Position numbers and translations under genes: made by a program | Origin: Helicobacteraceae bacterium | GTDB lineage: Bacteria > Campylobacterota > Campylobacteria > Campylobacterales > Sulfurimonadaceae | DNA length: 50,309 nt | Direction: 5' to 3' | NCBI GenBank assembly: GCA_027052175.1 | Contig: JALUFE010000034.1 | Span: 1-50,309, forward strand | Part shown: positions 4,425 through 37,128 of the stretch, in pieces | Position numbering within the stretch: position 1 is the first letter of the stretch | Layout of the letters: the number at the start of each line of letters is the position of its first letter | The notes under the pieces: model-generated | What the model was told of the DNA's origin: nothing | The model's input: only the letters and a program-made list of their open reading frames with translations | Databases searched by the model: none

Positions 4425-7001
4425 TTATGAGATATTGACAATCACTTCGTTGCCGTCGTAGTCGAACTCGACTTTATTGCCCTCTTTGACTCTGTCTTCG
4501 AGGATAAGCTCTGCAAGTCTGTCTTCGACGATCTCATAAAGAGCACGTTTGAGCGGTCTCGCACCAAAGACAGGATCGAATCCTGCCTCGGCGATATACT
4601 CTTTGGCGCGCTCTGTAAGAGTGATAGTGATATCTCTCTCTTCAAGCTTCTTGGCGATTTCGCTGAAGAAGATCTCAACGATCCCTTTGATCTCCTCTTT
4701 GCCAAGAGCGTTGAAGATGACCACTTCATCCAGACGGTTGAGGAACTCCGGCTTGAAGTGCGCTCTCAGGTCTGGCTTGATGAGTTCTTCGACATCATCG
4801 CCCGGCTTGGCATCCATGATCTTCGCACTTCCGATGTTGGAAGTCAGGATGATGATCGTGTTGCTAAAATCAACCGTTACACCCTTGTTGTCGGTAAGCC
4901 TTCCATCATCGAGTACCTGCAAGAGGATGTTAAACACATCCGGATGCGCTTTTTCGACCTCATCGAAGAGTACGACGCTGTATGGCTTTCTTCTAACAGC
5001 CTCCGTAAGCTGTCCGCCCTCTTCATAGCCGACATAACCCGGTGCCGCACCGACAAGTCGAGAGACCGCATGTTTCTCCATATACTCACTCATATCGATG
5101 CGGATCATCGCATCTTCGCTGTCGAAGAGGAACTTCGCAAGCGTCTTGGCAGTTTGTGTCTTCCCGACTCCCGTCGGTCCAAGAAAGAGGAAGCTTCCTA
5201 TCGGTCTGTTCTTATCACTTAGACCCGCTTTGTTACGCTTGATTGCACGTGCGACGGCATGGATCGCTTTTGGCTGACCGACAACCGCTTTTTTAAGCTC
5301 ATCTTCGATGTGAAGGATCTTGTCCTTCTCGCTTTGGAGCATCTTATTAACCGGGATGCCTGTCCAGCGGCTGATGATATTGGCAATCGCCTCTTCATCG
5401 ACTGCGTTTTTAAGCAGCGTTCCCTCTTTTTGCATCTCCTTCCACTGCTCCTGAAGACGCTTCTCCTCCTCTTGAAGTTTTGGAATCTCACCATATTCGA
5501 TCTCGGCCGCCTTATTGTAATCGCCCTGATTTTTCGCTAGCTCGGCCTCACGCTTCTTATTCTCGATATCGATCTTGATAGAAGCGATACGCTCGAAGAT
5601 CTCCTTCTCACGGTTGAACTGCGCCTCAAGGCGGCGTTTCTCTTCTTCGGCATCGGCGAGCTCTTTTTCTATCTCGTCAAGGCGCTTTTTGTTCTGCTCG
5701 GTCTCTTCCATCTTGAGCGCCTCTTTCTCGACATTGAGCTCCTGGATCTTTCTTTTGATCTTGGCAAGCTCATGCGGCTCGGACTCGATCTGCATCTTGA
5801 GCTCTGCTGCTGCTTCGTCGATCAAGTCGATCGCCTTGTCCGGCAAGAAACGATCAGTGATATAGCGTGCACTGAGCTTCGCTGCCGCTACAAGTGCACT
5901 GTCGGTGATCGTTACGTTGTGATGCGCCTCAAGCGACTCTTTGATACCACGAAGGATCTGGAGCGCCTGGTTGATTGTCGGCTCATCGACACTGACCGGT
6001 TGGAAGCGTCTCTGGAGTGCGGCATCTTTTTCGAAGTACTTTCTGTACTCTTTGAGCGTTGTCGCACCGATGGTGTGCAACTCACCACGCGCAAGTGCCG
6101 GTTTGAGGATGTTCGCAGCATCCATACTTCCTTCACTCGCACCCGCTCCAACAATCGTATGGATCTCGTCGATAAAGAGAATGATATTACCGTTCTCTTT
6201 GACCTCATCCACAACCGCCTTGAGTCTGTCCTCGAACTCACCGCGATACTTCGCACCGGCAATGAGTGCGGTCATATCGAGTGCTATAACCTTTTTGTTC
6301 TGCAAGCTTGTAGGCACCTCTTTGTTGAAGATGCGCTGTGCAAGCCCCTCAACCAGTGCCGTTTTACCAACCCCAGGCTCACCGAGCAGGATCGGGTTGT
6401 TCTTCGTTTTACGAATAAGGATCTGCATGACACGGTTGATCTCTTCATCACGTCCGATAACCGGCGGCAGTTCACCCGCAGCCGCCTTGGCTGTGAGATC
6501 TATACCATACTTACTGAGACTGTCTAACGTCTCATCCGCACTCTGGCTGTCTATCTTTGCACCCCCACGAGCGGCTTCAATGTTTTTCTCAAGCTCCATC
6601 AGATCCACATACTTGGAGATGATGGACTTAAACGGCTCGCTTCTGAGATTGGCGAGGATGTAAGTATCGACTGCAAGGAACTGATCCCCCATCTCCGTCA
6701 TTTTCCCCATCGCTCGCTGCAATGAGTCGGCAAACTCTTTGGAGAGTCTTATGTTCTCTTTCGTTACACTCGAAACCTTTGGCAGCTTGTTCGCTTCACT
6801 CTTGACATCGAGCTCCATCGCCGCCTTGTCAACGTTCATTTTGTTAAACATCTGATTGAGCACACTGTCGGTATTTGTCAGCTGAGCCCAGAGAAAGTGG
6901 ATCGGTGTCACCTCCTGGTTTTGGTTATGCAGTGCTAACGATATAGCGGACTCTATCGCCTCGGTCATGTTGTTGGTTAATTTTTCAAAAATCTGTTTCA
7001 T
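4425..7001 (-). CDS. clpB: ClpB, ATP-dependent protein disaggregase
   Basis: An 858-residue Hsp100 disaggregase, which works with DnaK to dissolve heat-induced aggregates. Order: N-terminal Clp repeat domain (about 1-145), AAA-1 with Walker A GEPGVGKT and Walker [10 protein letters not shown], a coiled-coil middle domain rich in K/E (about 405-525) that sets ClpB apart from ClpA and ClpC, AAA-2 with GPTGVGKT and [11 protein letters not shown], then the C-terminal small domain. The length is normal. AAGGAG lies 5-10 nt before the ATG. Its leader is unusual: a consensus promoter at 7301-7329 would start transcription at the edge of a 273 bp palindromic element that fills nearly all of the 5' UTR. 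The 3' end abuts the convergent GGDEF-EAL gene with one base between them. Confidence 0.98.
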
Positions 7002-7019
7002 TTTTCTCTCCTTTTTTAT

Positions 7020-7292
7020 TAACTGACCTTACGCACCATATCATAAACTGAGCGAAAAGCCAAAGCGTCAGCTGCAAGGCGGAGGTTTTTCAGCGTAGCC
7101 AAAGCTACGGTGAAAGTTCTCCAACGAAGTCAGATGATGCTTTATCTTTTCGCCCTACGGGTGGCTTTTGCGACACGCGATTGACTTCGTTACACCTCCT
7201 CAGTGTAGCTTTGGCTATGCTTCGTCGGTGTGCCTTGCACTCACATATCGTAAAAACCACTCAGTTTATGATATAGTGCGTAAGGTCAGTTA
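7020..7292. repeat. Palindromic Y-shaped intergenic element, copy A (clpB leader)
   Basis: Outer inverted arms of 33 nt (7020-7052 and 7260-7292) match at 32 positions; the single mismatch becomes a G-U pair in leftward RNA. They begin TAACTGACCTTACGCAC. Between the arms lie two further imperfect stem-loops, 7052-7153 and 7161-7260. The first has an apical hairpin at GTAGC/GCTAC (7095-7108) and the second at TAGC/GCTA. In both inner stems a GCAAGGC word on one arm faces AACGAAGTC on the other. Copy B (31991-32302) is the same element in the opposite orientation. It lies wholly in the clpB 5' leader, 18-19 nt before the start codon. There is no open reading frame inside. Confidence 0.9.
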
Positions 7293-7300
7293 TTAGAACT

Positions 7301-7329
7301 ATTATACTGATTGAGTTCTTTTATGTCAA
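7301..7329 (-). promoter_or_regulatory. Consensus sigma70 promoter of clpB
   Basis: On the minus strand TTGACA (complement of 7324-7329) and TATAAT (complement of 7301-7306) are separated by exactly 17 nt. Transcription is expected near 7294, two bases before the edge of repeat copy A. The spacer contains ACTCAA, which resembles half of an HspR-type heat-shock operator, but no inverted partner is present. Confidence 0.8.
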
Positions 7330-7365
7330 TCTATTTTCATAAATCTGGCGTAATTATACTGAGAT

Positions 7366-7394
7366 AAAAAAAGAAATAGTGCCACTTTAGTGGC
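7366..7394 (-). terminator. Probable intrinsic terminator of the 7450 gene
   Basis: In the minus-strand transcript GCCACT and AGTGGC (complement of 7381-7394) form a six-pair hairpin with a two-base loop. After five bases it is followed by a U-rich run (complement of 7366-7375). The offset of the U-run makes it weaker than a textbook terminator. Confidence 0.5.
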
Positions 7395-31990: not shown

Positions 31991-32302
31991 TAACTGACCT
32001 TACGCACTATATCATAAACTGAGTGGTTTTTGCGATATGTGAATGCAAGGCACACCGACGAAGCGTAGCCGTAGCTACACTGAGGAGGTGTAACGAAGTC
32101 AATCGCGTGTCGCAAAAGCCACCCGTAGGGCGAAAAGATAAAGCATCATCTGACTTCGTTGGAGAACTTTCACCGTAGCTTTGGCTACGCTGAAAACAAG
32201 CGAAGCGCTCGGCGAAGCCGATGTTTCTTTAGTAAAACCTCCGCCTTGCAGCTGACGCTTTCTCTTTTCGCTCAGTTTATGATATAGTGCGTAAGGGCAG
32301 TT
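31991..32302. repeat. Palindromic Y-shaped intergenic element, copy B (with 39 bp insert)
   Basis: Outer arms 31991-32023 and 32271-32302 match with one mismatch. The interior is copy A in reverse order and sense, very similar throughout, except for an extra 39 bp near 32193-32231 containing the hairpin CGGC-GAA-GCCG. The right arm overlaps the waaA coding sequence (32272-32302), providing its last codons and stop. A -10-like TATAGA (complement of 32312-32317) lies 10 nt beyond the right edge, as in copy A. Confidence 0.9.
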
Positions 32303-34190: not shown

Positions 34191-34459
34191 AACTGATCTT
34201 ACGCACCTATATCATCTATGAGTGGCATAAGTTGCAATCAAGCATAAATTTTGCAGCACCTATGAAGTTCTCAAGTACTTCAGATATTTCTGCGTTTACA
34301 CATTTGCAACTTCTGCCACCCCGCAAGGGCAAAGAGATAAAGCATCATCTGCTTCGTTGGAAAACCTCCACCGTAGAACAACTACGCTGGAGAACTTCCG
34401 CCTTGCATCTGACGCTTTCTCTCTTTGCTCAAAGAGGATATAGGTACGTAAGATCAGTT
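34191..34459. repeat. Palindromic Y-shaped intergenic element, copy C (diverged)
   Basis: Outer arms (AACTGATCTTACG... from 34191 and its complement to 34459) pair over about 32 nt with three mismatches. One inner stem-loop (TGGCATAAGTTGCAA / TTGCAACTTCTGCCA) is unlike copies A and B. The other (about 34325-34432) is close to the A/B stem, with the AAAGAGATAAAGCATCATCTG arm facing TTGCATCTGACGCTTTCT. It sits between the Nif3-like stop and the zinc-ribbon start. A TATAAC hexamer (complement of 34471-34476) lies 12 nt beyond its right edge. Confidence 0.85.
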
Positions 34460-36859: not shown

Positions 36860-37128
36860 GAGTACCTATCCATGAATCTTCTCAACTACTAGCGTTAAGA
36901 AAAGGGTACAGATGCAAGGCAGATTTTTGAAATCATAATGGCTCTACGATGAAAAAATCTAACGCCGTCAGATGTGCCCTTTTCTTAACGCCCACAGGGA
37001 GGTTCAAAATGATACCAACTACTGCGTTAAAAAGACTTGAAGCTACTTGTAGCGACTGCGTCTTTTTGCCTTGTACTTGGCGTCATTTTGAGCCTCTAGT
37101 AATTGAGAAGATTCATGGATAGGTACTC
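36860..37128. repeat. Palindromic Y-shaped intergenic element, copy D (unrelated outer arm)
   Basis: Outer arms 36860-36892 and 37096-37128 are 33 nt with one mismatch, which again is G-U in leftward RNA, but they begin GAGTACCTATCC and are unlike the arms of A-C. Two inner stem-loops follow: 36893-36990 (GCGTTAAGAAAAGGG and its complement) and about 37000-37095 (GAGGTTCAAAATGA and GTCATTTTGAGCCTC). The CAAGGC word facing an AACGCCGTC/ACTGCGTTA arm is kept. The element fills the whole space between the smpB stop codon, which it overlaps by 2 nt, and the TPR start. Confidence 0.88.

Follow-up and report, generated by a model that had tools for sequence, protein, structure and literature searches.

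The Correia elements (CREE/nemis) of Neisseria are stem-forming MITEs with inverted ends that lie between native promoters and genes and become part of the leader. At mtrCDE, one such element separates the genes from their native promoter; it is transcribed with them, and RNase III cleaves it (PMC2649163, PMC10969869). In the Bacillus cereus group, the repeats bcr1–bcr18 are likewise intergenic and often transcribed within UTRs; some are MITE-like and some have a conserved secondary structure (PMC3446304). Between 40 and 51% of the bcr repeats are found within mRNAs, often in UTRs, and carriage was correlated with decay rate for bcr3 only (PMC3446304). A stability effect can therefore not be taken for granted.

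Here we analyze an element in the leader of clpB from a Helicobacteraceae bacterium. The stretch of DNA analyzed, referred to as the window, is 50,309 nt long (GCA_027052175.1, contig JALUFE010000034.1). The clpB element resembles the Correia elements in its stems, its inverted ends and its position, but it has other termini, is larger (269 bp), has an IS701-type partner and 5-bp duplications, and adopts a predicted four-way-junction fold. Its host belongs to another phylum than that of bcr1–bcr18, and the likeness to these repeats is one of description, not of sequence comparison. With the IS701-type insertion sequences (NF049921) it has 15-bp terminal repeats in common, and its partner in genome G007 also has a 5-bp duplication; unlike these insertion sequences, the clpB element has no transposase and its interior is a cloverleaf core. 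The promoter of clpB carries a repeat similar to the CTTGAGT-N7-ACTCAAG-like repeat of HspR/HAIR heat-shock promoters in Campylobacter and Helicobacter (PMC7464140), but in the window promoter and ribosome site are parted by a mobile element. As a MITE in a leader, the clpB case adds a new example to a known situation, and the open-licence literature gave nothing relevant on such elements in Campylobacterota.

The clpB promoter and its empty site

The features of the locus are listed below in the direction of clpB transcription.

7381–7394, minus strand: short hairpin GCCAC-TAAA-GTGGC ahead of a T-rich stretch; a similar hairpin is present in the sister genome
7310–7330, minus strand: HAIR-like inverted repeat ATTGACA-N7-ACTCAAT, a putative HspR operator, overlapping the −35
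7301–7329, minus strand: sigma-70-type clpB promoter TTGACA-17-TATAAT, 12/12 match, conserved in other clpB leaders
7291–7295, no strand assigned: target-site duplication next to the promoter, reading TAATA on the minus strand and holding the predicted start at ~7294
7022–7290, minus strand: 269-bp MITE with ACTGACCTTACGCAC terminal inverted repeats and a predicted four-way-junction fold, non-coding clpB leader; recognized by its copies, duplications, partner insertion sequence and covariance model R1
7017–7021, no strand assigned: target-site duplication next to clpB, again reading TAATA on the minus strand, the other half of the direct repeat flanking the element
7008–7012, minus strand: clpB Shine-Dalgarno sequence AGGAG, outside the element and predicted to be mostly unpaired
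4425–7001, minus strand: clpB, encoding the ClpB disaggregase of 858 aa, a match to the ClpB profile TIGR03346 with a score slightly below its cut-off; ATG at 7001

A sequence-only reading of the window had placed a consensus promoter on the minus strand upstream of the element, a start near 7294 and the clpB ATG at 7001, and our analysis agrees with these assignments. In a pattern scan the promoter matched at 12/12 positions (TTGACA at 7329–7324, 17 nt, then TATAAT at 7306–7301), a score that was reached in 0.000 of 540 trials with shuffled clpB leaders. Its sequence and its conservation together point to a start at ~7294, 7 nt past the −10, which falls within the promoter-side TAATA; the leader from this predicted start to 7002 would be ~293 nt long. 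The order on the minus strand is TTGACATAAAAGAACTCAATCAGTATAATAGTTC-TAATA-ACTGACCTTACGCAC...GTGCGTAAGGTCAGT-TAATA-AAAAAGGAGAGAAAA-ATG. The GCCAC-TAAA-GTGGC hairpin is the probable terminator of the gene upstream of clpB. A further −10-like TATAAT, which is kept in the congener G003, lies at 7358–7353 upstream of the clpB promoter and could be the source of an extra, more upstream start.

We compared the leaders of 27 clpB genes of Campylobacterales, that of the window included. The promoter was present with at least 11/12 matches in 26 of the 27 leaders (25/26 without the window), as against 1.1% of shuffles. A HAIR-like repeat scoring at least 9/14 was found exactly at the −35 in 25/27, as against 2% of shuffles. 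The exceptions were L053, the sole clpB leader without the promoter, and L063, whose repeat scores 8/14. Measured against the HspR consensus CTTGAGT-N7-ACTCAAG (PMC7464140), the repeat at clpB scores 10/14 in the window and 12/14 in the sister species. Since the promoter and the operator-like repeat (9–12/14) occur together, in the same register, in 24 of the 26 other relatives, the clpB promoter is very probably real.

The distance from the −10 to the ATG is 20–42 nt in 22 of the 25 other promoter-bearing leaders and 76–98 nt in the remaining three (median promoter-to-ATG distance in the other leaders, 31 nt), as against 299 nt in the window. A comparison with related strains lacking the element, as proposed in the earlier reading, is provided by the congener G003, which supplies the empty site. 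Its clpB is 93% identical and has the same promoter; the element is lacking, and 20 nt separate TATAAT from the ATG. When the flanks in the window were joined with the element and one TAATA removed, the resulting leader aligned with that of G003. The clpB promoter is ancestral. The empty site and the conserved promoter thus suggest that the insertion lengthened the clpB leader from ~20 nt to ~293 nt, as counted from the predicted start. The sister species, with and without the element behind the same conserved promoter, constitute a natural experiment on a folded MITE leader.

We also searched for HspR itself. In the congener G001 a MerR-type protein passes the NCBIfam HspR model (NF047375), and a MerR_1 protein matching the G001 HspR in size occurs in both G002 and G003. 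The same search of the genome of the window gave no MerR_1/HspR match in an assembly that is 85.7% complete, and the missing HspR may be a gap. We infer that clpB is controlled by HspR in the species of the window.

Identity of the inserted element

The element had earlier been assigned to 7292–7020. The repeat is real and this span is right to within two bases; the transposon itself comprises 7022–7290, and the two bases in excess are palindromic and belong to its target. Its terminal inverted repeats are 39 nt long and 92% complementary, and no ORF of 60 aa or more lies inside 7022–7290. An Rfam 15 scan of the window gave no match at gathering score. The best hit at the element (E 0.98) was far below the gathering score, and as it was a chance-level miRNA match we rejected a known RNA family as the identity of the element.

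A DNA search revealed eight near full-length copies in the genome of the window, including the one at clpB, with 79–100% identity. The seven others are 79–92% identical to the clpB copy, and diverged and partial copies are present as well. Long copies of the clpB-type element were also found in G001, G003 and G005. Exact 5-bp duplications are seen at several copies (TAATA at clpB, and TTTTA, TAAAA and TAAGA), and the target duplications of the remaining copies are imperfect or absent. Insertion sequences of 1104 and 1113 bp with the ends of the element are present in G007 and G022. The one in G007, which has TAGTA on each side, encodes a 350-aa DDE transposase (NCBIfam NF049921, IS701_2; E 2.6e-102). 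No IS701_2 transposase was found in the genome of the window (85.7% complete) or in the complete genome G003, and a search among plasmid records gave no DNA similar to the element. Because of its dispersed copies, its target duplications, and the transposase-encoding insertion sequences that carry its ends, we classify the clpB element by sequence as a MITE, an IS701-type non-autonomous transposon. It is short and non-coding, has inverted ends, and has an autonomous partner in G007 and G022.

Tiny versions of 43–49 bp, which consist of nearly just two back-to-back terminal repeats, were also seen (L194:1746–1788, L200:1984–2028 and L202:2111–2159). They are bordered by TATTA at each end.

Several copies lie 13–34 nt upstream of a start codon, in either orientation relative to the gene. 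The genes that follow are clpB, carB, hemB, a pseudouridine synthase and, in G005, efp; apart from clpB these names were read off the translations. Short intergenic gaps alone could be the source of this pattern.

The terminal repeat contains an outward-reading, −10-like TATGAT, and as promoters are carried by neisserial Correia elements and other MITEs (PMC10969869) one might expect that the element brings a new outward promoter and that clpB transcription begins inside the repeat or at its far end. However, the pattern scan found no −35/−10 pair within the element, on which ground we rejected such a promoter, and the intact, conserved consensus promoter is located directly upstream. We consider this origin of the clpB transcript improbable.

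Possible effects on the clpB mRNA

As the promoter lies directly upstream of the element, the element would form nearly the whole clpB leader of ~293 nt, which is what the sequence-only reading had proposed. The leader, described there as fully folded, has a predicted fold of −137.8 kcal/mol (z −10.7 against shuffles). The 269-nt element alone is predicted to fold as a four-way junction, and adding flanking bases shifts the prediction to an alternative.

The leader had also been suggested to be a temperature-sensitive structure. An RNA thermometer or other switch, in which heat melts or rearranges the leader and frees the ribosome site, is favored by the heat-shock gene and by the strong fold of its leader. 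We computed accessibility from energy parameters for the leader with and without the element at 20–85°C. The predicted unpaired probability of the ribosome site stayed within 0.84–0.96 across these temperatures, with 0.84 at 20°C and 0.96 at 65°C, and that of the clpB ATG went from 0.41 to 0.94. To two decimals, the values with and without the element were identical up to 65°C; at higher temperatures they differed by no more than 0.01, and the outer stem was predicted to be at least 93% paired still at 85°C. The geometry accounts for this independence: the element pairs with itself, and its end lies ~10 nt before the AGGAG ribosome site, which is not part of the outer stem. In these computations the ribosome site is neither sequestered in the cold nor freed in the heat, and we therefore rejected the RNA thermometer. 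Equal accessibility makes it unlikely that the clpB leader acts as a temperature sensor. Related elements precede apparent hemB, carB and other non-heat-shock genes, and heat control, which the HspR-type operator over the −35 would already cover, is better explained by that operator than by the fold of the leader. We thus give a thermometer or similar switch hardly any probability.

The explanation that we find best, and regard as probable, is that a MITE sits at about +1 of an HspR-type promoter and that the folded leader acts, most likely, on processing or stability of the mRNA. The sequence itself shows the insertion, the target duplication, the family, the partner insertion sequence, the empty site, the conservation of the promoter and the predicted independence of the ribosome site. 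The 269-bp IS701-type MITE entered the ancestral HspR-type clpB promoter at about the predicted +1 and duplicated TAATA. With the promoter and the ribosome site intact after the insertion, clpB would be transcribed from the same promoter with a folded leader of ~293 nt, and heat control would remain at the promoter via HspR. The outer stem of ~30 bp and the long arms would be expected substrates of RNase III or similar enzymes, and the clpB mRNA could end up trimmed to a short 5′ end that is open to ribosomes, or else have a 5′ end shielded by structure.

By analogy with the Correia and bcr repeats, we favor RNase III processing or altered stability as the likeliest effect of the element, the main rival being no appreciable effect. 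In the latter case the element would be a neutral passenger, a selfish insertion at an AT-rich spot in the leader that keeps the promoter and the ribosome site intact and does not appreciably alter clpB expression. This would fit with copies that precede unrelated genes in either orientation or adjoin gene ends, with a ribosome site whose predicted accessibility is unchanged, and with the lack of a consistent strand bias in the stems. In the neutral register, G-T against A-C counts are 11/10 for the outer stem and 15/15 for the right arm, though 32/16 for the left arm. On the other hand, a double-stranded leader of ~293 nt is, as a general expectation, seldom without any effect, and RNase III processes comparable elements (PMC2649163, PMC10969869). 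We therefore consider a neutral passenger rather unlikely, though it is the alternative to take most seriously, and retain an effect on processing or stability as the preferred reading.

The strand counts also bear on the level at which the fold is selected. Selection on an RNA strand is taken to leave more G-U pairs than A-C mismatches on the selected strand, and RNAalifold-based counts favor G-U by construction. As the outer stem and the right arm are balanced and the left arm is 2:1, we rejected strand asymmetry as a sign of RNA-level selection. Given this lack of a consistent strand preference, DNA-level selection, for transposition or hairpin extrusion, is at least as likely as selection at the RNA level.

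The cloverleaf superfamily

Among the clpB-type copies, two-sided changes keep the pairing at 40 of 77 stem pairs, and the covariation score is 0.287, compared with 0.140 for shuffles and no more than 0.090 for slid controls; these values are to be read with the caveat that the structure comes from the same alignment and that kinship of the copies inflates the counts. Elements with the unrelated ends TAGACTTCTTGCAAAAC, TAAGTAATGAGGCA, GGGCACCTCTAAAA and TATTACGCCACCAACTA, from the same genome and its relatives, share the length and the apical hairpin CACCGTAGCTnnGGCTACG. Together they form a superfamily of ~270 bp with at least six unrelated termini and one rigid four-way-junction fold, which comprises a stem of ~30 bp, an arm of ~99 nt, a mini-hairpin of 7–11 nt and an arm of ~100 nt. 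A junction with branches of 95–104, 7–11 and 95–104 nt was predicted for 26 of 30 elements of 260–290 bp, and for 0 of 600 controls in which the ends were kept and the interiors shuffled. Similarity across families is local yet significant (e.g., 55 nt at 85%, E 8e-14), and the basal stems of the families differ at almost all positions with pairing retained.

The training set of the covariance model R1 included other copies of the family but not the one at clpB, which the model recovers at 127 bits (E 8.6e-33; E-values of R1 are rough due to a short calibration). R1 matches 90 of 299 sampled Campylobacterales genomes from 29 of 81 genera, with G000, G003, G004 and G039 among them. The distant matches mostly have the same geometry, and their ends vary.

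The presence of at least six termini on one strongly covarying fold across the order suggests a structured core riding different transposases. Tentatively, we propose that the core fold is kept by selection and has had unrelated transposon termini swapped onto it, that it could function in transposition or in transcripts, and that the clpB mRNA is one carrier. It can be tested whether DNA or RNA is the form in which the shared fold is required. A cloverleaf superfamily with exchangeable ends is probably new, as it is absent from Rfam and from the open-licence literature searched.

Model R1 also detected three more cloverleaf elements in the window, at 31994–32302, 34192–34459 and ~36860–37128, which lie ~20, 18 and 3 nt upstream of minus-strand start codons, respectively. 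The first is a clpB-type copy (L004:1504–1812) whose right arm has an extra insertion of ~40 nt, and the last has a different end, ACGAGTACCTATCC.
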